Shown piece after piece: positions 18,881 through 57,160 of a stretch of DNA of 64,000 nt. Source of the DNA: Rheinheimera sp. 4Y26 (lineage in GTDB: Bacteria; Pseudomonadota; Gammaproteobacteria; Enterobacterales; Alteromonadaceae). The stretch lies in contig NZ_JAOBWS010000001.1 in assembly GCF_025245835.1 (NCBI RefSeq), positions 620,001-684,000 of the forward strand, in the 5' to 3' direction. The notes beneath the pieces were generated by a model, which had not been told where the DNA came from, searched no databases, and saw only the letters and a program-made list of their open reading frames with translations. A program made the translations under genes and the position numbers. The first letter of the stretch is position 1. Each line of letters opens with the position of its first letter.

Positions 18881-19705
18881 TTACCATGTGGCTTCCAGTG
18901 CCAGATAATAACCCTGTTGCGCTGAAAAACCGGCAATGCGGCCAAGGTCAACATAACCGCCTACCAGACTAAAGTTTTTATTGATAAACCAGGCGGCAAA
19001 AATATCACGCCAGTGCTGCTCGTCGGCAAAATCAAGCTGATTGGGTTTTTGCCTGAATTCAACCCCGACCGCCAGTTGAGGGGTCAGTAGCACAGCGGCC
19101 GAGCTTTCAAATAACCACTGATAACTGTTGTCGTTCTGGCTACCAAAACCTAATAAGCCAATCTGATTGGCACGGCTGGCACGCAAGGTTGCGTTCAGCA
19201 GCAGATTACGTCCGGCCACAGCAGCAAAATACACTTTGCTGGCGGCCAGATAATAATCAATGTCACTGTCATCCCGGGCGCCAACAGCAGAGGGCAGGGC
19301 AAAGTTACGGTGTTTTTTATACTGAATGCCGGCGCTGAGCTGTGGCATCTTGCTATAAAGCAGCTCACCGGCAATATGGTATTTCAGGCCTATCACGTCT
19401 TGCTGTAAATCACCGCCTAAAGTGTCGAGATCAAACTGCTGTCTGGTATAAGACAGCTCCCACTCATTGTTGTAGCTGGCGGCTACACCATAAGTGTGCA
19501 GGCTGAAATCATCGACACCAACATTATTGTTAAAAGCCAGCACCGACCACTGCTCAGTGCTGGCATAACCATTGATCACGGCCCAGGGCACAATGCCACC
19601 GCCGGCTGCACCTTCAATACTGGTGGCGCCACCTGTGGCGATAATTTTGCTGCCGGCCTGAACCGGCAACGCCAGTGCCAGCAGCCATAATGCGGCATAT
19701 TTCAT
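18881..19705 (-). CDS. DUF3034 family outer-membrane-like protein
   Basis: A 274-residue protein with a signal peptide (MKYAALWLLALALPVQA) and the DUF3034 hallmark KIIATGGATSIEGAAGGGIVPW just after it. The rest is rich in alternating aromatic/polar strands (YTRQQFDLD, QLSAGIQYKKHRNF, NFSLVGGYVDLG) and ends in a C-terminal aromatic residue (LEATW), as beta-barrel outer membrane proteins do. The family function is unknown. Its start codon overlaps the stop of the upstream GGDEF-EAL gene by 4 bases, and it is followed by the globin gene. Confidence 0.8.
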   Translation of the reverse strand: MKYAALWLLALALPVQAGSKIIATGGATSIEGAAGGGIVPWAVINGYASTEQWSVLAFNNNVGVDDFSLHTYGVAASYNNEWELSYTRQQFDLDTLGGDLQQDVIGLKYHIAGELLYSKMPQLSAGIQYKKHRNFALPSAVGARDDSDIDYYLAASKVYFAAVAGRNLLLNATLRASRANQIGLLGFGSQNDNSYQWLFESSAAVLLTPQLAVGVEFRQKPNQLDFADEQHWRDIFAAWFINKNFSLVGGYVDLGRIAGFSAQQGYYLALEATW

Positions 19706-22023
19706 CCGGCATTCTCCTTAAAATAATCCTGGTGCTGTGCAGGGAATTGCAGTAACCATTGATGGAAAGCCTCTGCCGTTAAAGGTTTGGAAAAATAATA
19801 ACCCTGTACTTTATCGACACCGTGTTGCCGCAATTTGGCAAGGCCCGCCTGGTTTTCCAGACCCTCAGCTGTCACCAGCAGGCCAAGGCCATGCGCCAGC
19901 TGAGTGGTGGCTGCCACTATCAGCTCATCATTCTGGTTAAATTCGATATCTTTGACAAAAGCCCGGTCAATTTTTACTTCGTGTACCGGCAGCTGTTTGA
20001 TATAAGCCAGCGACGACTGGCCGGTGCCAAAGTCATCAATCGCCAGTTGAATGCCCATACTACGTAACTGACTTAAAATATCGATCACCTTTTGCGGTTC
20101 CTGCATCACAGCCCCTTCGGTCACTTCCAGTGCCAGCGACCGGGCATTCAGGCCAAATTGTTGCAGTTTAGCCGCCAGCATAGCCGGCAGTTCAGGATTG
20201 GTTAAATCGTTGGCTGACAGGTTAATGGCCACCTGCACCAGCATCTGCTGTTGTTGCCATTGGGCCAGTTGCGCCATTACCTGATCGATCATCCAGTGCG
20301 TCACCAACGCTATCAGGCCTGAGTGTTCAGCCAGACGGATAAATTCATCCGGTGGAATAAAACCGAGTTGCGGGTGTTGCCAGCGGATCAGCGCTTCGGC
20401 GCTGTGGCAGCGTTGTTGTTGCACTTCCACCTTCGGCTGATAGACAACAAACATCTGGCCACTTTGTAACGACAGGGGCAGATCACGCAAGATGGTGAGT
20501 TCGCGCTGATGGCTTTCATCCTGACCACTCTGATACCAGGCCAGATGGCCGGCCTGACGTTTGGCATGCATCATGGCAATATCCACCCGGCGCAGCGCAT
20601 CGCCGGCAGTCACAGTTTGTGTGCTGTCGGGCTGATACAGCGCCAGTGCCAGGGTCAGATTCAGGCTGGAATCCTGCAGTTTATAGTCCAGCGACAGCTG
20701 CTGTGTCAGCTGTTGCAACAACGGTGGAGTGAGTTGACGCTGATGTAATAATAAAAATTCGTCACCACCGAGCCTGGCAATTAACAAAGGTTTTAATAAT
20801 GACGTTTCCAGCCGTCTGGCCAGCTGCTGTAATAACAAGTCGCCATTGTGATAACCAAAGGTATCGTTGATATGTTTAAAGTCTTTGATATTCACCAGCA
20901 GCAACTGCGCTTGTGGCAGTTTTAACAGTTCAGGCAGCTGCAGCTCGGCCAAACTGCGGTTCGCAAGGCCGGTGAGGCCGTCGTGTTGTGACTGATATAA
21001 AATCTGCTGTTCCCTTTTGCTGATATCCAGCTGCATTTTGCCAAGCGTCTGACTGAGCACACCGACTTCACCTTTATGCAGCGCCGGGGCACGGGCTGGT
21101 AAACCCTGACCTATATTGCGGGCAAATTCGGTCAGCTGTTTCAGCGGATGGGTGATGCTGCGGGCTACCACATAAGCCAGCAGCAGGGCCAGCGACAAAC
21201 CCAGGCCAAAAATAATCAACAGCTGAGCGCGAGCCTGCTGATAGTTTTCACGCCAGCGGCTGGTGGCTAAATGCAGATAAGCAAAAAGTTGCTGGGGTTG
21301 ATCAAGCGCCACCGCCTGATTTAAATACTCCGGAAAACTATCGGCAAAAAAACCGCTTTGCATCTGATGGTTGCTGGCAGCAAGCTCGGCCGCCAGTTGC
21401 AGTGGCACTGTGGCTGCCAGTGGCTGCATGTTATCGCCATCGCGGCGTTGAAAACTGATATCAAGTTCAGTGACGCCTTTGATTTGAGAGGCCAGTTGCT
21501 GGTCGAGGGAAAACCCCATGCCCACCCAGGCAATCAGCTGTGGCGCCAGCACAGGCACCATCACCAGCTGATAAGCATCATCACCGAGCAACACTATGTC
21601 GGTATAACCCTGGCGCCCTGTTTGTTTAATTTGCTGAACCAGCGCCTGGATTTGGGACTGGCTGATTTGATTCTGTGTGCTGGCCAGCAGTTCACCCTGG
21701 GGTGACAGCAGCATGCCGACATTGGCATGAATACGATCACCATGGTTTTCCAGCACCGAGCTGATGGTGTCCTGCTCTGAGGTGGCAACAGCGCGGCGAA
21801 AGCCAAAGTCACTGGCGACAATACGCACTGAGGTATTGAGCTGCTCTGAGCGGTTGCTCAATAGTTGCTGAAACACTTTGGTGGCCACCGACAAACTTTG
21901 TTGTGCTTCGCTGTAGTTATCCCTTTTCATCGCGCTTAAAGTGGCGATGGCAATAGCGACTGTCATCAGACTGAGCAGCCCGGTGAGCAGAATAATCAGG
22001 CGAACACGTAAAGAGTCAAACAT
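19702..22023 (-). CDS. Bifunctional diguanylate cyclase/phosphodiesterase (GGDEF-EAL) with periplasmic sensor
   Basis: A 773-residue inner-membrane protein: membrane helix about 6-28, periplasmic sensor about 30-265, second helix about 268-288, a HAMP-like linker, GGDEF domain about 340-500 and EAL domain about 510-760. The cyclase motif is intact (RLGGDEFLLL), preceded by DLTGLANR-type sequence (HDGLTGLANRSLAE). The phosphodiesterase motifs are also intact: SAEALIRWQHP, LEVTEGAV, AIDDFGTGQSSLAYI and VTAEGLEN. Both activities are therefore possible. GAGG sits 5 bases before the ATG at 22023. First gene of the operon with DUF3034 and the globin lipoprotein, suggesting that c-di-GMP signalling is tied to a gas- or envelope-related cue. 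Confidence 0.93.
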   Translation of the reverse strand: MFDSLRVRLIILLTGLLSLMTVAIAIATLSAMKRDNYSEAQQSLSVATKVFQQLLSNRSEQLNTSVRIVASDFGFRRAVATSEQDTISSVLENHGDRIHANVGMLLSPQGELLASTQNQISQSQIQALVQQIKQTGRQGYTDIVLLGDDAYQLVMVPVLAPQLIAWVGMGFSLDQQLASQIKGVTELDISFQRRDGDNMQPLAATVPLQLAAELAASNHQMQSGFFADSFPEYLNQAVALDQPQQLFAYLHLATSRWRENYQQARAQLLIIFGLGLSLALLLAYVVARSITHPLKQLTEFARNIGQGLPARAPALHKGEVGVLSQTLGKMQLDISKREQQILYQSQHDGLTGLANRSLAELQLPELLKLPQAQLLLVNIKDFKHINDTFGYHNGDLLLQQLARRLETSLLKPLLIARLGGDEFLLLHQRQLTPPLLQQLTQQLSLDYKLQDSSLNLTLALALYQPDSTQTVTAGDALRRVDIAMMHAKRQAGHLAWYQSGQDESHQRELTILRDLPLSLQSGQMFVVYQPKVEVQQQRCHSAEALIRWQHPQLGFIPPDEFIRLAEHSGLIALVTHWMIDQVMAQLAQWQQQQMLVQVAINLSANDLTNPELPAMLAAKLQQFGLNARSLALEVTEGAVMQEPQKVIDILSQLRSMGIQLAIDDFGTGQSSLAYIKQLPVHEVKIDRAFVKDIEFNQNDELIVAATTQLAHGLGLLVTAEGLENQAGLAKLRQHGVDKVQGYYFSKPLTAEAFHQWLLQFPAQHQDYFKENAG

Positions 22024-22353
22024 GAGACCTCGTCAGACCGGCTTTTTTGCTGAGGGCGAAGCATAACATAATGGGTACTACATCGAACATCTGAGCTGTA
22101 TCAGTAGCTTAGTGTTAAGTTGTATAACCATAGGCGGTCAGGGCATGGCTTTCAACGCAGGCAGCGGTAAAGCGGCTAAAAAGAACGGGAAATGAAGGTA
22201 AAAAGCGCTCTGCCGCCCCGGCTTTTCCCGATGCTGGTGAAATTTGTGCTGCAATTGCCGGTGGGCAAAGTCTGTGAAGAAAATTCAGTGGTAACAATGC
22301 AAGGATAAAAAAACCGCCCTGAGGCGGTTTTTTATATTGGGGAGAGCTTGCGC
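22024..22353. other. Intergenic region: leader of the GGDEF-EAL operon plus upstream terminator
   Basis: No credible gene. On the minus strand TTGAAA and TATGGT are separated by 17 bases at about 22126-22154, a candidate promoter for the GGDEF-EAL operon with a leader of about 100 bases. Further upstream an inverted repeat (22186-22192 with 22224-22230, 7-bp arms) encloses a GC-rich stretch. It shows no riboswitch consensus that I can identify. The segment nearest 22354 is the terminator of the cohesin-like gene. Confidence 0.4.
22305..22333 (-). terminator. Rho-independent terminator of the nuclease-cohesin operon
   Basis: Stem ACCGCC/GGCGGT (22313-22318 with 22323-22328, loop CTGA) with long A and T flanks, 20 bases past the stop of the cohesin-like gene on the minus strand. 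Confidence 0.85.
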
Positions 22354-22941
22354 TTAACGGCGGCGTAAACGCAGCATCAGCAGCAGGGCTGGCAGCATCA
22401 GCCAGGCAGTCGCTGGTGCTGAAACAGCAGTAGTCTGATCACCAATCTGCGCCTGAGCCAGCTCAGAGCGTACTTCCATATCAATATATGGCGAGCTGGC
22501 TTCATACACCACAGAAGCAGAACCCAGTTGCAGCTTTGCTAAACCATTTTTCAGCGCAGTAAAGCTGATGCTGGCCAGGCGGAAGTTACTACCAGGCTGC
22601 ACTGCTGCTAAGTCGGTCAGATCTTCAGTAGAAAAACCAAAAAACAGTTCCCACAGCGTCAGTTCGCCGTTATCAGCAAAAAAGTCGCGATCACTGCCAA
22701 CAGCAGGGATGCTGAGGAAGTCGCCAAAGCTGACGTTTTGCAGCTGTAACAGGTTGCTGTTAAACAGCAGGCTGGCGTCAAAACCTGTCACCAGATCCTG
22801 AATGTCGCTCAGCCACAGCTCGGCTTTGACAGTGTCACCCACTTCATATTGGTTTTTATCCAGCTGAATGTTGATCACTGTCGCCTGGCTTTGTGCCGCA
22901 AAAAACAGTGCTGCGGCGGCAAATAAAGTTTTAAACATCAT
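22354..22941 (-). CDS. Cohesin-domain protein with PEP-CTERM-like sorting signal
   Basis: A 195-residue exported protein with signal peptide to about residue 20 (AAQSQA). Residues about 22-165 look like a cohesin domain: INIQLDKNQYEVGDTV, GFDASLLFNSNLLQL, and FRLASISFTALKNG, the pattern of cohesin strands that hold dockerins. The end is a PEP-CTERM-like sorting signal (VSAPATAWL, hydrophobic LPALLLMLRL, then RRR) with SAPAT in place of PEPAT. It lies 31 bases behind the nuclease gene that ends in dockerin repeats, with AGGAA before its ATG. Inferred role: membrane or surface anchor that captures dockerin-bearing partners. The domain call rests on pattern, not on a profile search. Confidence 0.75.
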   Translation of the reverse strand: MMFKTLFAAAALFFAAQSQATVINIQLDKNQYEVGDTVKAELWLSDIQDLVTGFDASLLFNSNLLQLQNVSFGDFLSIPAVGSDRDFFADNGELTLWELFFGFSTEDLTDLAAVQPGSNFRLASISFTALKNGLAKLQLGSASVVYEASSPYIDMEVRSELAQAQIGDQTTAVSAPATAWLMLPALLLMLRLRRR

Positions 22942-22972
22942 TTTTTATGGTTCCTGTGAGTAAATCGCACTG

Positions 22973-25498
22973 TTAATAAATGGCGCAACGGGCGTAGGTG
23001 CACAGCGCAGTCATGGCGCGGGCATCCAGCAAGTTCACTTTGCCATCTTTGTTAAAGTCATAAATCAGCGGTAACACAGCGCCGCTACGCAGCAGGTTGT
23101 TAAACAGGCTGATATCTTTGTTGTCGACATCACCGTCTTTATCTAAGTCGGCCGGATTGTCGGTTTTCAGTGCCAGTTCAATTACCACAGGGTCGTGGTC
23201 AGAAGAACGGAACTGGGTTGGCTGGTACAAATCGTTTTGTTGTTGCAGCGTTTTGTTTTCAACGTTGTAGTCGAACAGGATAGGTTCGTCAGCGTTGATG
23301 TGCCATTCAGTGGCATAAGTCACTTGTGATGACAGGTTGCTGCTGGCCAGCGCATGGTCTAAATAACCGCTTTCGCCGCTAAACACATAACCATAACCAT
23401 GGCTGCCCTGATATTTACCCACTAAGTCGATAAAACCATTGCTGACAAAAGCGTGGATTGGATCTTCTTTGGCGTAAGAGTTTAAGTCACCAATCACCAG
23501 CACATCTTTATCAGCAGAGCCTGTTGGGTTGGTGGCAAGCCAGGCCATCAGCTCGGTTGCAGCCTGCACCCGGGTGGCGTTCCAGCAGCTCTGACCGTCT
23601 TTCAGGTCGCGGTCCGGATTAGTGCTACCACTTGGACAACCGCCTTTGGATTTAAAGTGGTTGACTGCCAGGGTAAAGACTTCGTTGTTGCTCAGTTGTT
23701 TAAAGCTTTGTACCAGCGGTTGACGGTTGCCATGCGCAAAAACACCACTGCTGGTGGTCACAGCTGCACCCAAAGGTGCTACTTTTGCTGGTTTGTAAAT
23801 CAGGCCAACGGCAATTTCGTCTGTGCCTAACTGAGTTAAACCAGGGACCTGCACAAACTGATACACAGTGCCGCCCATCCGCTGATTCAGTTTGCTGACT
23901 AAATCGACAATAGCGCTGCTGCTGCCATAACCGTCGTTTTCAATTTCCATTAAACCAACCACGTCGGCATCCAGAGCGGCCAGAGCGGCAATCACCTTGT
24001 CAGATTGACGTTCAAATTCGGCGAAAGAACTGGCACCACGCGAGGTTGGGAAACCAGCACCTGCGCCGTCACCGTTAAAATAATTCAGCACGTTAAAACT
24101 GGCGACTTTTAAGGTGCCGGTATTCTTCAGTGGTGCTTGTTCGGTGCGTGGGTTGGTGTTTACCAGTTGTGGCGCGCTCACCGGCAATAAACGCCAGGCG
24201 CTGAAGCTGTAATCCAGGGTGCCACGCAGATTGCTAAAGCTGTCGCCGGTACGTACCGGGTTTTGCATGGTCAGGCCAGGCGCCGGGTAAATAATGTTGG
24301 CCGGGTTTTTACCGTTTTGCAGGTCGTCCAGTACAATTTTATTCCGGCGGTTTTGATCTGCCAGTGCTATTGCTTCAGCGCTGCCCGGGCGATACAGATT
24401 GGTTGGGGTAAATAACCGCTCTGATGCAAGCGTCAGCTCGCCGTAAGTGCCCAGGTTATAAGTATCAACCACGGTCAGGGTCTGACTGAACTCCACCTGC
24501 ATACTTTCCAGGCTTTCCCACTGGGTCAGGTTGCTGACTGGTAAAGTGACGTTTAGTGCAACAACGGTTTCACCAACACCACAATCGAGCAGCGCAGTGC
24601 TGCGTTTGAGTTGGGTTTTAGTGAAAAACTCTTCGACTACACCCTGCACTCTTACTTTCTGGCCAGGTTGCGGGTAGTCAGTGACACCGCTGTTGTAGAT
24701 AAAAATAGCTTCTGAGGTGTTGGCGTCAGCGTCCTGATCGGCCGCTTCTTCCTGCACAAAAAAGCCGTTGGCTGTTGGCAGTACCTGAGTGACTACAGCT
24801 TCCACCACATGGGTTTTGCCCACTTCCGGCGAAACAGCGGTTGCGCCCTGGATCAGGCTGATTTTAGTGGCTGCATCACCGCAGTTGCCAAGGCTTGGCG
24901 TTGGAACCGGCTCTTCCGGCTCTGGTTCAGTACCACCGCCGCTGCCACCGGCATGGCTACCCAGGTTGCTGTAGGTATTGGCGGCAAAACCGTCCCACTC
25001 CAGCGCCGGGTCAAAAGCGTCATCAGCAACATTGTCGCCTTTGCCGATGCTGCTTTTACGCACCAGGGTGGTGTCCAGAGTTTTTACTGCGCTGCCCCAG
25101 GTGGTGCCAGGGTCAACACCAATCTGGCCAATCACATCCAGTAAGGTGGTGCCTTTGTATAAAGCAACGGCATCATCACCGTTAAAGTTGCCTGAGCCTA
25201 AAGTCAGGCTGGCTGACGTTTGTTTGTCTTTCAGTGCCTGCTCTGCACTGGTATCTACCAGCACCAGCACAGACTTAGCGCCTACCTGGCCAGACAAATT
25301 AATGGTTTTGCCGGCAGTAACAGCACCATTGGAAAACACTTTGATGGAATAACCGGATAAATCCAGTGGGGTGTCGGCCGGGTTATAAATTTCCAGCGCT
25401 TTATTGTTTGAGGTGCCTTCGACATATTCCGAAAAAAACGGTTCTGCCTGAAGTGCCGGTGCCAATAACGCCGGCAGCAGGAGCATTTTAATGTTCAT
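22973..25498 (-). CDS. ExeM/NucH-family extracellular endonuclease with C-terminal dockerin
   Basis: An 841-residue secreted nuclease. Order: signal peptide (to about 18), lamin-tail-type domain (about 20-180, FFSEYVEGTSNNKALEIYNP), a Gly/Glu/Pro linker, an OB-fold region (about 205-460), the endonuclease/exonuclease/phosphatase domain (about 465-780), then two calcium-loop repeats of a type I dockerin (DLDKDGDVDNKD and DFNKDGKVNLLDAR). Catalytic motifs visible are VASFNVLNYF, GLMEIENDGYG, VNHFKSKGGC, VIGDLNSYAKEDP and RSSDHDPVV. Family members degrade extracellular DNA for nutrition or biofilm remodelling. A paralogue without lamin-tail and dockerin lies at 55385-57160. The next gene encodes a cohesin-like protein. 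Confidence 0.92.
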   Translation of the reverse strand: MNIKMLLLPALLAPALQAEPFFSEYVEGTSNNKALEIYNPADTPLDLSGYSIKVFSNGAVTAGKTINLSGQVGAKSVLVLVDTSAEQALKDKQTSASLTLGSGNFNGDDAVALYKGTTLLDVIGQIGVDPGTTWGSAVKTLDTTLVRKSSIGKGDNVADDAFDPALEWDGFAANTYSNLGSHAGGSGGGTEPEPEEPVPTPSLGNCGDAATKISLIQGATAVSPEVGKTHVVEAVVTQVLPTANGFFVQEEAADQDADANTSEAIFIYNSGVTDYPQPGQKVRVQGVVEEFFTKTQLKRSTALLDCGVGETVVALNVTLPVSNLTQWESLESMQVEFSQTLTVVDTYNLGTYGELTLASERLFTPTNLYRPGSAEAIALADQNRRNKIVLDDLQNGKNPANIIYPAPGLTMQNPVRTGDSFSNLRGTLDYSFSAWRLLPVSAPQLVNTNPRTEQAPLKNTGTLKVASFNVLNYFNGDGAGAGFPTSRGASSFAEFERQSDKVIAALAALDADVVGLMEIENDGYGSSSAIVDLVSKLNQRMGGTVYQFVQVPGLTQLGTDEIAVGLIYKPAKVAPLGAAVTTSSGVFAHGNRQPLVQSFKQLSNNEVFTLAVNHFKSKGGCPSGSTNPDRDLKDGQSCWNATRVQAATELMAWLATNPTGSADKDVLVIGDLNSYAKEDPIHAFVSNGFIDLVGKYQGSHGYGYVFSGESGYLDHALASSNLSSQVTYATEWHINADEPILFDYNVENKTLQQQNDLYQPTQFRSSDHDPVVIELALKTDNPADLDKDGDVDNKDISLFNNLLRSGAVLPLIYDFNKDGKVNLLDARAMTALCTYARCAIY

Positions 25499-25845
25499 AG
25501 GGTTTCCATGACTGAATTGTTGGAGTTGGCTGTTGTTAATATTTTTCGTTTTTTGTCAGCAAAATTGCGCAAAAAAACGTTACTTTTTATTTAGCCGCTG
25601 CACGTTAGAGAATATTTGTGACAATTTCAATAAAGCCTAATGAATCTTTTTAAAACCTTTACATGATTTTGTAAAATAACCTGACAGCGATGAAGGTAAA
25701 TTGTTGATTTACTGGACGGATCAGTTGCTGAAAAAATATTAAATTTTTTTTGTTGCTCCCCCGAGCAGATCAAGCTTTGTGTGTTGTTGCAATTGGCAGA
25801 ACAGCCCGGCTCCGCTAAGCTGGAGCAACCAGACATAAGGGATTG
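25499..25845. other. Divergent intergenic region between nuclease and patatin genes
   Basis: AT-rich and without a credible gene. Minus-strand TTGAAA (25625-25630) and TAACGT (25602-25607), 17 bases apart, form a candidate nuclease promoter. Just upstream of that -35 lies an operator-like palindrome, TTTACA-N6-TGTAAA (25658-25675). Nothing convincing was seen for the plus-strand promoter, though AAGG precedes the patatin start. Confidence 0.4.
25658..25675. promoter_or_regulatory. Operator-like palindrome upstream of the nuclease gene
   Basis: Perfect 6-bp arms TTTACA and TGTAAA with a 6-base centre, directly upstream of the candidate nuclease promoter. The cognate regulator is unknown. Confidence 0.45.
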
Positions 25846-28116
25846 ATGATGAAGCTAATTTGTGCCGTTTTAGCGCTGAGTTTGCTGGCGATGCCGCTGC
25901 GGTCTTATGCCAGTGCTGAGCTCAAAAACGGTCCTTGTGCCCGGGTGAAAGGCCGGCCTTGTATTGCGCTGGTGCTGGGAGGCGGCGGCGCCCGCGGTGG
26001 TGCTCATGTCGGGGTGCTGAAACAGCTGGAAAAACAGCAAGTGCCGGTTGACTTGATTGTCGGCACCAGTATCGGTGCTTATGTCGGTGGATTATATGCA
26101 CTGGGCCACAGCCCAAATACTATTGAACAAATGCTGCTTGATACCGACTGGAGTCAGGGGTTTCGCGATAGGGTAGAGCGGGATGAAATGCCGATGCGGC
26201 GCAAGCAGCAGCGGGATGATTTTCCGATTAATCTGGATTTAGGCCTGGATGGGGCCGGTCTGAAGTTGCCAAAAGGCGTGTTGCATGGTCAGGCGATGGC
26301 GGAACTGATTCGCCATGCTTATGGCGTCCAGCCTGAACTCTCCAGCTTTGATGAGCTTGCCATTCCATTTCGGGCTGTGGCCACCAATCTGGCGAACCGG
26401 GATGAAGTTGTGCTTGGCAGCGGCAGTCTGTTACAGGCGGTGCAGGCGTCTATGTCTATTCCGGGTGTGGTACGGCCGCTGGAACTGGGTGGCATCTCTC
26501 TGGTGGACGGTGGTGTAGCCAACAACCTACCGGTCAGCGTAGCCAAAGCACTTGGCGCCGACAAAATTATTGCAGTGGCGATAGATGCACCTTTGCTGGA
26601 GCAACATCAGCTCAATAGCGCCGTGGCTATTACCGAACAACTTACCAGTTTTTTAGTGCGTGAAGCAGTAGAGCGGCAGCTGGCTTTATTGGCGCCTGGC
26701 GATATTTTGCTCAAACCCAAGGTAGAGCAAATCGGCACCCTGGAGTTTGACCGGATGGATGAAGCCATTCTGGCCGGCGATCGGGTCGCGACAGCTTCTG
26801 AACCTGCTTTTGCTGCACTGAGTCAGCCGCAGCTATATGCCAGCTGGCAACAGCAACACAGAGCACGGCGCCACACCGAGTTGCACTTAGGCAAAGTGCA
26901 GCTGGATAACCAAACCAGCCTGGCCGATGAGGTGTTATTAAAACGGCTGAATTTAATACCAGGCCAGCAGCTCAGCACAGATGAGCTGAAGCAGGCACTG
27001 CGTCGTGTTTATGGTCTGGATACGCTGGAGCGGGTCAGTTCCAGTCTGAGCAGCAGCGAAGAGGCAGGGCAACTGTTAAAAGTGCAGGCGCTGGAAAAAA
27101 GCTGGGGGCCGGCTTATCTGAATTTCCGGCTGCAGTTAGCAGATGATTTTCGCAATACCCACAATTATCAGCTGGCGGCCTCTTACTTGTGGACCGGTTT
27201 ATCGCCCTATGGCGCCGAATGGCAGACCGATATTGCCCTTGGTACCGACAAAAACCTGCAAACTGAATTGTATTGGCCCTGGGGTGCTTCCGGTTTTTAC
27301 AGCACAGCCCGATTATCGCAGCAGCGCACTGTATTGGGGCTGGAAAGTGAGCAGGGTTTGTCTGATGGTGAGCTGACCAACTCAGAACTGTTGCTGGCCA
27401 CTGAGCTCGGTTATGAGCTGTCCGATCACAGCAGGTTGAGCCTGGGATTACAGCAGGAGGATGGCCAGTATCTGTTACCGGCCGGTACTGCGGCAGAGCT
27501 CGGTTTTGGTGCTTTTTCCTATTTACGCCGGGGTGTAGCCGGAAGTTATGCCTGGGATAATCTTGACAGCCTTAGTTTTCCAAACCGGGGCGTACGGTTT
27601 GAGGCCACAGTGCAACGCAGTCAGGACAATGTGTTAGACAGCCGCAGCCACAGTGTCAGCTCTATGCTGCATCTGCAGGGGGCAAAGCGTTTTGGCGCCC
27701 ATGTGCTTCGCAGCAGGCTGCGCTGGGACACTTTTAACGGTGATGCCGGCGTGCTGGCGCTGGAGCAATATTCGCTGGGAGGCTTGTTTAACTTATCCGG
27801 TTATCCCAAAGCCTATTTATTTGGCTCTGAGGTGCGTTTTGGTAGTCTGATGTATCTGTATCAGCTCAGTGACAGCAAATTCAGCTTTTTTAATGCCCCT
27901 TTTTATCTTGGCGCTTCGCTGGAACGTGGCGCTGTGTATCAGCCGCGTTTTAACCGGGCTGCGGCGGCCAATTCCGGTGGCTGGATTTGGGCCGGTAGTG
28001 TGTTTGCCGGTTGGGACAGTCCTTTTGGGCCTTTGTACCTGGGTTATGGCTTGGCCGAAGCCAGCACAGAGCAGCAGCCCTATCGTTTTTATTTATCGCT
28101 TGGCCAGAGTTTTTAA
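25846..28116 (+). CDS. Patatin-like phospholipase fused to an outer-membrane barrel (type Vd autotransporter)
   Basis: About 756 residues. Signal peptide to about 23. Patatin lipase domain about 38-330, with the oxyanion loop GGGGARGGAH, the nucleophile elbow VGTSIGAYVGG and the catalytic Asp in LVDGGVANNLPV, giving a Ser-Asp dyad. A POTRA-like domain follows (about 345-405), then a 16-strand type beta-barrel ending in Phe (FYLSLGQSF). This is the PlpD layout: the barrel inserts in the outer membrane and the lipase faces outward or is released. Start 25846 (ATG ATG AAG) is preferred over the TTG at 25843, and AAGG precedes it. glpK follows 18 bases after the stop, so glycerol released from lipids could in principle feed the next enzyme. 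Confidence 0.9.
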   Translation: MMKLICAVLALSLLAMPLRSYASAELKNGPCARVKGRPCIALVLGGGGARGGAHVGVLKQLEKQQVPVDLIVGTSIGAYVGGLYALGHSPNTIEQMLLDTDWSQGFRDRVERDEMPMRRKQQRDDFPINLDLGLDGAGLKLPKGVLHGQAMAELIRHAYGVQPELSSFDELAIPFRAVATNLANRDEVVLGSGSLLQAVQASMSIPGVVRPLELGGISLVDGGVANNLPVSVAKALGADKIIAVAIDAPLLEQHQLNSAVAITEQLTSFLVREAVERQLALLAPGDILLKPKVEQIGTLEFDRMDEAILAGDRVATASEPAFAALSQPQLYASWQQQHRARRHTELHLGKVQLDNQTSLADEVLLKRLNLIPGQQLSTDELKQALRRVYGLDTLERVSSSLSSSEEAGQLLKVQALEKSWGPAYLNFRLQLADDFRNTHNYQLAASYLWTGLSPYGAEWQTDIALGTDKNLQTELYWPWGASGFYSTARLSQQRTVLGLESEQGLSDGELTNSELLLATELGYELSDHSRLSLGLQQEDGQYLLPAGTAAELGFGAFSYLRRGVAGSYAWDNLDSLSFPNRGVRFEATVQRSQDNVLDSRSHSVSSMLHLQGAKRFGAHVLRSRLRWDTFNGDAGVLALEQYSLGGLFNLSGYPKAYLFGSEVRFGSLMYLYQLSDSKFSFFNAPFYLGASLERGAVYQPRFNRAAAANSGGWIWAGSVFAGWDSPFGPLYLGYGLAEASTEQQPYRFYLSLGQSF

Positions 28117-55384: not shown

Positions 55385-57160
55385 TCAGAATTTAAAATCC
55401 ATCAGCAAAGGGTCGTGATCAGAAGAGCGGAATGGCGTGGGCGCGTACAGGCTCTGCTGCTGATTTTTTGATTTAAATTCAGTGTTGTAATCAAGCACGG
55501 CCGGCTCGTCGGCATTGATGTTCCAGTGCTGGAACTGTGTCAGTTGTTTGGCAAGGCTTGGGCTGGCCAGGGCGTGATCGAGACTGCCGGAGCGGCCGCG
55601 ATAAACAAAAGACCAGTGCAGGCCTTCTCCTGCCAGATGCACAAAGCCGGCTTGTTCTAAGGTTTTCACCGGATCTTCCATCCGATAGGCATTTAAATCA
55701 CCAATCACCAGCTGATGGGGTGTTTGAATGCCTGTTGGGTGAGTGGCCAGCCAGCTTGCCAGTGCTTTGGCAGCTTTTACCCGGCTTGGGTTCCAGCAGG
55801 CCTGACCATCATTCTGATCGCTGTCCGGCATCTGTTGTTTTGGGCAGCTGCCTTTGGATTTAAAGTGGTTAATACTAACGGTAAATTCAGTGCCGGATGC
55901 CGGATGGCGGAAACTTTGCGCCAGAGGCGGACGGCTACCGCGATCAAAAGGCGCATCCAGTTTCACTGCGGCTTCACCAATGGGGCTCACCACAGCCTTG
56001 CGGTAAATCATCGCCACTTTAATATCGTCGCCACCGGGTTTTACTTTAGTGCTGACAAAAGCATATTGTTCACTGCCAAGTTGCTGGTTCAGGCTCTGGA
56101 CTATGGTAGCAATGGCGCTGCCTGCGGCTTCGCCATTGTTTTCGACTTCCAGTAAGCCTATCACATCCGCATTTAATGCCGTTAAAGTGGCCAGCATTTT
56201 GGCTTGTTGCCGCTTTAACTCAGCCTCGTTGCTGGCGCCCCTTTTGGTGGGGAACTGTGGATTATTGCCGGTGCCGGTAAAAAAGTTCAGCACGTTAAAA
56301 CTGGCCAGGCGCACAGTGTCCGGCGTTTTTGCTTTGGGCGCTGTTTGTCTTGCATTGGCGCTCTGAAACTTCGGTGCCTGGCTTATCAGTAAACGGTAAC
56401 CGGCTTTGGTCTGCACCAGGTAACCTTCAACACCCTGTACTTTGTCGCCCACCCGCACTGTGTTGGTTGCGGTTAAACCGCCGGTGGGGAAGGCTATAGG
56501 TTCGGCGTTTTGTTTGTTGTTGTGATCATCAATGACAATTTCGTGCAGCTGTTGTTGCTGCTCAAAAGCGGCAGCGGTTTTGCCCGGTTGGGTTACTTCT
56601 GTTGCGACAAACAATCTTTTATCGGCCAATAACAATTCACCGTAACGCGCCAGGCCATAACTGTCGTTCACCACCAGAGGTTGTGCCAGGCTCAGCCAGT
56701 GACCTTCCAGGCTTTCCCAGTCGGATAACTGCTTAACCGGCAAGGTCAGGCTGGTTTTACGCACCGGCTGTTGTTCAGCGCAGACAATGCTGTGGCTGAT
56801 ATTGGTTAAGGCTGTCATTTGCTGCAATTCACGAACTGTGCCGGTCAGCTCGAGGACTTGTCCTTGCTGATAAAGAGCGGCCAGTTCTTTGTCGGCGATT
56901 AAAATCGCTTCAGCTGTCTGTGTTTTGTCATCGGGCTGCACACTTTGCAGCAGCAACATCGGTTGTTTGCTGTCTTGATACAAAGTACCCAGCACCACCC
57001 CCCGGGTGGTCAGGGTTTTGCCAACTAAAGGGCTTTGTGCGCCAGAGCCCTGAATGTCAGCAATGGCGGTAAATTCTTTACTGCACTTGGCAGCAAGTGG
57101 CAGCGACAATAAAGAACAACTCAGGGGCAACAGCACCCAAGCAGCAGTAGAAAAATTCAT
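55385..57160 (-). CDS. ExeM/NucH-family extracellular endonuclease (short form)
   Basis: A 591-residue paralogue of the nuclease at 22973-25498. After a signal peptide (to about 24) come an OB-fold region (about 30-280) and an endonuclease/exonuclease/phosphatase domain (about 285-590). Catalytic motifs: LASFNVLNFFTG, GLLEVENNGEA, INHFKSKGSCP, LVIGDLNAYRMEDP and RSSDHDPLL. It lacks the lamin-tail domain and the dockerin, so it should be freely secreted or periplasmic. Converges on the MAPEG gene and is monocistronic. Confidence 0.9.
   Translation of the reverse strand: MNFSTAAWVLLPLSCSLLSLPLAAKCSKEFTAIADIQGSGAQSPLVGKTLTTRGVVLGTLYQDSKQPMLLLQSVQPDDKTQTAEAILIADKELAALYQQGQVLELTGTVRELQQMTALTNISHSIVCAEQQPVRKTSLTLPVKQLSDWESLEGHWLSLAQPLVVNDSYGLARYGELLLADKRLFVATEVTQPGKTAAAFEQQQQLHEIVIDDHNNKQNAEPIAFPTGGLTATNTVRVGDKVQGVEGYLVQTKAGYRLLISQAPKFQSANARQTAPKAKTPDTVRLASFNVLNFFTGTGNNPQFPTKRGASNEAELKRQQAKMLATLTALNADVIGLLEVENNGEAAGSAIATIVQSLNQQLGSEQYAFVSTKVKPGGDDIKVAMIYRKAVVSPIGEAAVKLDAPFDRGSRPPLAQSFRHPASGTEFTVSINHFKSKGSCPKQQMPDSDQNDGQACWNPSRVKAAKALASWLATHPTGIQTPHQLVIGDLNAYRMEDPVKTLEQAGFVHLAGEGLHWSFVYRGRSGSLDHALASPSLAKQLTQFQHWNINADEPAVLDYNTEFKSKNQQQSLYAPTPFRSSDHDPLLMDFKF

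Follow-up and report, generated by a model that had tools for sequence, protein, structure and literature searches.

In Clostridium thermocellum, cohesins of the surface proteins OlpA and OlpC, which are anchored by SLH, hold dockerin-tagged enzymes, and this arrangement is among the closest described to the locus considered here. The locus is a pair of genes on the minus strand of a 64,000-nucleotide stretch (the window; positions 620,001 to 684,000 of contig NZ_JAOBWS010000001.1) of the Rheinheimera sp. 4Y26 genome, one gene encoding an ExeM/NucH-family extracellular nuclease that ends in a dockerin and the other a small exported protein with a single cohesin and a PEP-CTERM-like sorting tail. 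The cohesin model matches 3ul4_A and 4dh2_C with Z scores of 13.8 and 13.9, respectively, but OlpA and OlpC belong to a Gram-positive organism and serve plant-polymer enzymes, whereas the window pair is Gram-negative, has the PEP-CTERM-like tail, lacks a scaffoldin and has nuclease and protease cargo.

Cohesin and dockerin modules also occur outside cellulosomes, and such modules were reportedly surveyed by Peer et al. in 2009. According to the accessible parts of the reports, two dockerin-like open reading frames (ORFs) and six ORFs with cohesin-like modules were described in the gammaproteobacterium Saccharophagus degradans, with binding left to future study (PMC2386152); in anaerobic methanotrophic (ANME) archaea, cohesin/dockerin pairs were suggested to fasten proteins to the outer layer (PMC9012536), and adjacent cohesin/dockerin domains are highly expressed in their partner bacteria (PMC10553843). 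A paper on methanotrophic archaea (PMC5244752, seen in part) called the role of cohesin and dockerin proteins beyond cellulosomes not known; it was also the one paper in the open full texts searched to mention exosortase along with dockerin or cohesin, and the part seen deals with them separately. The accessible parts of the reports on S. degradans and on ANME archaea and their partners describe no exosortase-sorted single-cohesin receptor paired in an operon with a nuclease or collagenase. Other non-cellulosomal cohesins are those of Clostridium perfringens glycoside hydrolases (2vo8, the best Foldseek match of the cohesin model at E 4.4e-8, and 2jh2); these are part of the enzyme itself, as judged from the record titles, whereas the window cohesin is a separate protein with a sorting tail.

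The remaining parts of the locus have described relatives as well. ExeM of Shewanella oneidensis (NF033680) belongs to the same nuclease family and also carries a lamin tail domain (LTD), but it has its own GlyGly-CTERM-type C-terminus, whereas the window nuclease ends in a dockerin. The tail of the small protein resembles that of the PEP-CTERM/exosortase A (XrtA) system in its C-terminal motif, hydrophobic stretch and basic end, and XrtA together with exopolysaccharide genes is present in the genome; this system is known as a sorting signal, and the literature search returned no case in which it serves as the base of a docking receptor. Among 5.39 million open full-text papers, none joins PEP-CTERM with dockerin, or PEP-CTERM with cohesin and dockerin, and the opinion given in an initial annotation of the window, that no system of this kind has been named, held in that literature. 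Cohesin and dockerin modules and surface attachment by them are already known; what is new, as far as the literature was searched, is the exosortase-anchored, operon-paired receptor for exoenzymes.

The nuclease gene and the small gene very likely form a tether, in which an exosortase-sorted receptor with one cohesin and a PEP-CTERM-like tail keeps exoproteins that bear a dockerin on the cell surface or within the exopolysaccharide. The arrangement probably corresponds, in Gram-negative bacteria, to the anchoring of cellulosomes, but with no scaffoldin, and serves nucleases, collagenases, other proteases and algal-polysaccharide enzymes. The modules, the folds of their models, the pairing of the genes, the recurrence of this pairing and its link with exosortase form the basis of this reading. 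The features of the pair, with their evidence in brackets, are as follows.

22973 to 25498, minus strand: ExeM/NucH-family extracellular nuclease of 841 amino acids (aa), consisting of a signal peptide (by eye), LTD, nuclease and dockerin (NF033681, PF00932, PF03372)
25124 to 25441, minus strand: LTD, residues 20-125 (PF00932, 47.7 bits)
23168 to 24805, minus strand: ExeM/NucH catalytic region, residues 232-777 (NF033681)
22976 to 23155, minus strand: C-terminal type I dockerin, residues 782-841; two calcium loops, Cys pair at the end (PF00404 on the tail, AlphaFold model, fold comparison)
22942 to 22972, minus strand: intergenic gap of 31 bases between the nuclease and cohesin genes (ORF coordinates)
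22354 to 22941, minus strand: single-cohesin exported protein with a PEP-CTERM-like tail, 195 aa (ORF, PF00963, family alignment)
22882 to 22941, minus strand: signal peptide of the cohesin protein, ending in AQSQA (by eye)
22426 to 22881, minus strand: cohesin domain (PF00963, AlphaFold model, structure comparison)
22357 to 22425, minus strand: PEP-CTERM-like sorting tail, VSAPATAWLMLPALLLMLRLRRR (family alignment; PF07589/TIGR02595 matches of relatives)
22308 to 22333, minus strand: intrinsic terminator 3' of the cohesin gene (folding: 11 pairs, -15.4 kcal/mol, z -4.44)

The strong terminator hairpin behind two genes spaced by only 31 bases makes the pair look like an operon. The nuclease passes the ExeM_NucH model NF033681 (661.7 bits, cut-off 300) and matches Exo_endo_phos (PF03372) with 36.1 bits, and it fails the model for ExeM with GlyGly-CTERM (NF033680; 408.9 bits against a cut-off of 1300), its C-terminus being the dockerin. 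The two calcium loops of the latter are DLDKDGDVDNKD and DFNKDGKVNLLDAR. Dockerin_1 (PF00404) gave 19.7 bits (E 0.001) on the whole nuclease, which is under the cut-off of 22.9, and 25.6 bits, which is over it, when the 60-aa tail was scored alone; the same model matches 20 of 22 related dockerin tails at E ≤ 0.05, and D3, D5, D11, D14, D33, D37, D44 and two cysteines are invariant in all 22. A PF00404 search of the whole genome returned no match at E ≤ 0.001, probably because the dockerin match is weak in its full-length context, so that family-specific models are needed. The AlphaFold model of the dockerin (predicted local distance difference test score, pLDDT, 94.7) has helices at 12-23 and 42-51, one after each F-hand-type loop, and in the fold comparison rows 1-21 were all dockerins (best Z 6.5, root-mean-square deviation (rmsd) 2.8, 53 aligned), the first other calcium-binding protein standing in row 22.

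The 195-aa protein reaches 24.9 bits with the cohesin model PF00963, narrowly over the cut-off of 24.1, and this model matches 12 of the 24 members of the cohesin family (that of the window included) at E ≤ 0.05. Its AlphaFold model (pLDDT 90.8, predicted template modelling score 0.84) was compared by VIA-align, where the first 42 rows were cohesins (best Z 16.1, rmsd 3.0, 145 aligned), and by Foldseek, where all 50 matches listed were cohesin modules or cellulosome chains. Chance similarity to EF-hands or immunoglobulin (Ig)-like domains was rejected: dockerins and cohesins head the lists of structures matched by the predicted folds, and cohesin neighbours were seen only beside nucleases with dockerin-like tails. 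The PEP-CTERM motif is a variant, VSAPA..RLRRR, with a hydrophobic stretch and a basic end; the alignment column that reads VSAP in the window protein mostly reads VPEP or VPAP in its homologues. The tail part of NF041927 (the XDP1 model) matches the window tail at E 0.016, below the cut-off of that model, and at E ≤ 0.05 PF07589 and TIGR02595 match 13 and 15, respectively, of the 24 family members. A plasmid-borne trait was also rejected, the window cohesin being without a match in 72,556 plasmid records.

The initial annotation had placed the two ORFs on this strand with 31 bases between them and had read the larger one as an ExeM-type nuclease ending in two dockerin calcium loops, all of which was borne out. 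The profile matches for which it had called were obtained for the cohesin and, for the dockerin, in the isolated tail, not in the whole protein. The cohesin-dockerin tether that it had suggested is supported by profile, fold, gene neighbourhood and the co-occurrence of exosortase described below, binding and anchoring being what we infer from them.

The pair is not alone in its genome. Homology search with the window cohesin found a second cohesin (35% identity) on another contig, 24 bases downstream of an M9 collagenase gene (Peptidase_M9, 309 bits), and the last 70 residues of the collagenase are 48% identical to the nuclease tail. Genome searches with both cohesins and both tails gave two cohesins and two tails, each pair adjacent. 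Both of these cohesin proteins are about 200 aa long and hold one cohesin, with no multi-cohesin scaffoldin among them, and the dockerin cargo of this genome consists of a nuclease and a collagenase, not of plant cell wall degraders. A nuclease-specific system was therefore rejected, first on this second pair and then on the further cargo types of relatives. Two minor matches were also recorded in the same genome, namely a weak match to the tails at a third place (E 1.05) and a PF00963 match of 22.5 bits, below the cut-off, in a 1538-aa frame (L005, G000:C11:101431-101595; L, G and C numbers are our handles for loci, genomes and contigs).

The pairing recurs in the order to which the strain belongs (Enterobacterales in the GTDB taxonomy), of which 394 genomes were searched. 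With both Rheinheimera cohesins as queries, 10 places were found in 6 genomes, and a dockerin gene adjoined every one of them, the dockerin lying C-terminally, internally or N-terminally in its protein. When the dockerin and cohesin models were run separately over the same genomes, 27 of 31 cohesin places had a dockerin no more than 1.5 kb away, and at 4 kb the number rose to 29, the chance expectation being roughly 0.004 per cohesin; one of the two remaining cohesins (G263) has a weak dockerin next door. Conversely, 29 of 49 dockerin places had a cohesin within 4 kb. These 31 and 49 places are those over the search thresholds, and the first look of the search can miss. The pairing, frequently one-to-one within an operon, holds over unrelated proteins (nuclease, M9, M43, S8, porphyranase), over C-terminal, internal and N-terminal dockerins, and in either gene order. 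The paired-locus count itself, 45 of 65, is biased by its seeds because part of the loci were gathered as cohesin matches. The cohesin proteins seen measure about 170-270 aa, enough for a single cohesin, and no scaffoldin turned up among them. Separately, four loci (L214, L216, L215, L024) encode large PKD/Ig-rich or unassigned proteins with the dockerin near the N-terminus and the cohesin gene upstream, not downstream. At four others (L152-L155; G039:C1, G134:C1, G273:C10, G014:C1), dockerin-like proteins stand beside PEP-CTERM proteins of 257-285 aa that the cohesin model does not match, and the dockerins of L152, L154 and L155 end in LYTNPxGAR where the main type ends in CTRxRCA; these PEP-CTERM proteins are perhaps a different docking receptor.

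A gathering of nucleases by their catalytic domain only, from which the best 80 of 555 relatives were taken, was independent of the tail. A Cys-type dockerin end was present on 20 of the 80, and 17 of these 20 have a cohesin gene immediately downstream, against none of the 54 nucleases without a dockerin (Fisher test for an adjacent cohesin, 17/20 vs 2/60, P 1.8e-12). The figure of 54 leaves out six nucleases whose dockerin-like tails are of another kind (L037, L041, L050, L058, L065, L094); the neighbours of L065 and L094 scored weakly cohesin-like with the full-length cohesin model (34.2 and 16.7 bits), and the genome search gave no cohesin match in the genomes of L037, L041 and L058. Weak scores of that model are inflated because it includes the signal peptide and the PEP-CTERM tail: with a tail-less cohesin model (A6, for which all 17 cohesins adjacent to nucleases served as training set), the L065 neighbour fell to 15.7 bits and that of L094 was not listed, and Pfam calls neither a cohesin. 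A second weak match to the full-length model, of 25.3 bits, was noted at L106. The models of the adjacency test were trained on ten pairs, of which L030, L033 and L106 recur among the 80. Within the genus, Rheinheimera texasensis (L030) has both the dockerin nuclease and the cohesin, and the nucleases of the set that come from R. pleomorphica, R. pacifica and one Rheinheimera metagenome-assembled genome have neither a dockerin nor a cohesin neighbour. Among the 80, dockerin-like tails (26, assigned by hand) and membrane-type tails (13, found with a simple pattern, several GlyGly-like by eye) never occur together, and the two look like alternative ends of the nuclease. The window holds a second nuclease for comparison, which the initial annotation had rightly described as a paralogue without a dockerin.

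55385 to 57160, minus strand: paralogous nuclease, 591 aa, without LTD or dockerin (Pfam) or membrane tail (by eye)

The sorting machinery expected for a PEP-CTERM-like tail is present. Exosortase A of the genome (TIGR03109, 290.6 bits, cut-off 208; PF09721, 218 bits) is encoded within an exopolysaccharide cluster; 10 proteins of this cluster were scanned, and 9 pass models of the XrtA/PEP-CTERM system. In the order, an exosortase over the cut-off occurs in all 20 cohesin genomes and in 29 of 31 dockerin genomes, compared with 83 of the 394 overall, and in 25 of the 26 genomes with a dockerin at E ≤ 2e-9. This distribution bears on the alternative that the cohesin protein binds the dockerin enzyme and yet does not tether it, being instead a partner that holds the enzyme in the periplasm or helps in its secretion, or else an inhibitor dependent on calcium, with its C-terminus merely an inner-membrane anchor. 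Such a role would agree with a tail that could serve as a plain membrane helix, with the frequent one-to-one operon pairing, also to be expected of a dedicated chaperone, and with ExeM of S. oneidensis, which, in the accessible part of a report, was located almost exclusively to the fraction of the cytoplasmic membrane (PMC6085458). We nevertheless regard it as unlikely: a plain anchor would not need the exosortase that accompanies every cohesin genome of the order, the cohesins of solved structures are docking modules according to the structure titles, and some genomes carry several dockerins but at most one cohesin next to them.

The preferred tether would operate in the following steps, in which we infer binding, the need for calcium, sorting, the final location and the benefit. 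Both the nuclease and the small protein would be exported across the inner membrane by their signal peptides, and exosortase A of the exopolysaccharide cluster would recognise the PEP-CTERM-like tail of the latter. Sorting would leave one cohesin per receptor, either on the cell surface or within the exopolysaccharide; the initial annotation had put forward the cell surface, and the location could equally be the exopolysaccharide matrix. The nuclease dockerin would fold on calcium and then bind the cohesin and, being held there, would therefore have DNA cut near the cell, with the products not lost, as we propose; the paralogous nuclease at 55385-57160, without a dockerin, would be free. The same tag and receptor, often with one receptor per operon, would serve other exported enzymes and adhesin-like proteins.

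The range of cargo, examined beyond nuclease and M9 by scanning 22 dockerin proteins with Pfam, was broad. It comprised M9 collagenases, a subtilase, M43 pappalysin-like proteases, porphyranases, a GH42-like protein, a chondroitinase-B-like beta-helix protein, a glucuronyl esterase, a CBM6 protein, BNR_4 proteins, a VWA protein, PKD/Ig-rich proteins and adhesin-like proteins; polysaccharide enzymes with a dockerin were seen only in relatives, not in the window genome. The initial view of the pair as a tether for a DNA-degrading enzyme thus proved correct as to the nuclease pair and too narrow as to the system, since many kinds of exported protein carry the dockerin. Some dockerin proteins have no adjacent cohesin (L194, L196, L197, L211, L213). 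In G272 (L194-L197) four dockerin proteins, a nuclease, a GH42-like protein, a porphyranase and a BNR_4 protein, were all recorded without one. Beyond the order, the dockerin is sparse in the class, at 15 of 369 genomes, three of which are from the order; in 6 of the 12 genomes outside the order a cohesin-like gene with a PEP-CTERM-like end stands beside the dockerin (L228, L231, L232, L233, L235/L240, L236). At L235/L240 (G640:C1:1488492-1490110), a single cohesin-PEP-CTERM gene was observed between two dockerin genes, so that one receptor may serve two proteins.

Loci of these kinds raise the alternative that the receptors build a shared, cellulosome-like multi-enzyme complex, one cohesin protein serving many dockerins genome-wide. 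The G640 arrangement would fit it, as would G272, whose four dockerin proteins would be served by one unlinked, near-full-length cohesin if G272 is the same genome as G396. To this alternative we give very little credence, for the cohesin proteins have room for one cohesin each, no scaffoldin was seen, and 29 of the 31 order cohesins have a dockerin neighbour of their own.

Sequence distances within pairs were also compared. Dockerin and cohesin distances correlate (r 0.40, P 2e-4, 45 pairs), and for the 28 nuclease pairs r was 0.51, with a partial r of 0.33 given the nuclease domain; across enzyme types, with L072, a second dockerin gene sharing a cohesin, dropped from the comparison, the double-centred (per-sequence) correlation was r 0.31 (P 1e-4). 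The correlations fit a unit evolving together and cannot separate binding from co-inheritance.

A number of observations weigh against the tether. Nuclease and cohesin distances correlate too (r 0.55), so the signal is partly co-inheritance, and the raw correlation across enzyme types is weak (r 0.13, P 0.058). Moreover, dockerins lacking a nearby cohesin are common: in the order, the search showed none at a distance of up to 4 kb for 20 of the 49 dockerin places. Both facts could be taken to mean that the dockerin is a mere calcium-stabilised end piece, that the cohesin does something else and that the two form a cassette by history, the nuclease-cohesin correlation being as strong as the dockerin-cohesin one. 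This is most improbable in the face of a pairing that spans unrelated proteins, dockerin positions and both gene orders, and of 54 dockerin-less nucleases with no cohesin neighbour at all.

Other points on the same side concern single genomes. The genomes of G106, G121 and G224 carry a dockerin nuclease, and no cohesin was found in them in the order survey; a nuclease with the dockerin tail in a genome lacking the small protein, which the initial annotation had named as counting against it, thus occurs in a small number of genomes, provided that no cohesin was overlooked there. The cohesin search can overlook one, the genome behind L082 having none as G272 and one as G396, if these are the same genome. 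The co-occurrence that had been anticipated is seen in the 17 of 20 dockerin nucleases with an adjacent cohesin, the genomes of the other three each having a near-full-length cohesin match elsewhere, and it was not found in G106, G121 and G224. Of the unlinked cohesins, that of G395 adjoins a different dockerin subtype and that of G396 has no dockerin neighbour. In G244 the order survey found a dockerin and neither a cohesin nor an exosortase; this dockerin (L213, G244:C31) is internal in an M43 protease. In the other 6 of the 12 dockerin genomes outside the order, there was no such cohesin-like gene within 1.5 kb or the contig ended early.

The remaining points concern the machinery and the window proteins. 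Both the exosortase and the dockerin concentrate in the family of the window strain, the link between them being partly shared ancestry, and it is weaker within that family (22/23 vs 7/12, P 0.012). PF07589 and TIGR02595 do not list the window cohesin protein at E up to 5, so that the PEP-CTERM-type tail initially assigned to it stands on its hydrophobic and basic end and on the model matches of relatives, not on a match of its own to these two models. The Z score of the dockerin fold match is middling taken alone (best 6.5). Finally, in the accessible part of the report, loss of the C-terminal anchor did not release Shewanella ExeM from the membrane fraction (PMC6085458), and the nuclease family may therefore stay near the cell by other ways.

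The recurring pairing suggests a general, apparently undescribed means of keeping secreted enzymes near the cell. The pairing offers a testable answer on two matters, the role of cohesin and dockerin proteins outside cellulosomes and that of PEP-CTERM proteins after sorting, for which few functions are known to us: PEP-CTERM cohesins would be receptors and dockerin-tagged exoproteins their cargo. If this is true, it would account for the retention of costly exoenzymes near the cell in some aquatic bacteria, a 60-residue tail would predict which secreted enzymes are cell-bound, and a Gram-negative surface-display tool would become available.

A consensus scan around the pair did not list the terminator found by folding, and it gave 6 promoter-like sites against 3.2 (standard deviation 1.6) in shuffles, none of them on the minus strand ahead of the nuclease start. 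GGDEF/EAL-like and patatin-like genes at window positions 19702-22023 and 25843-28116 flank the pair, and, judging by eye from translations, apparently do so in R. texasensis as well, so that the locus looks conserved.

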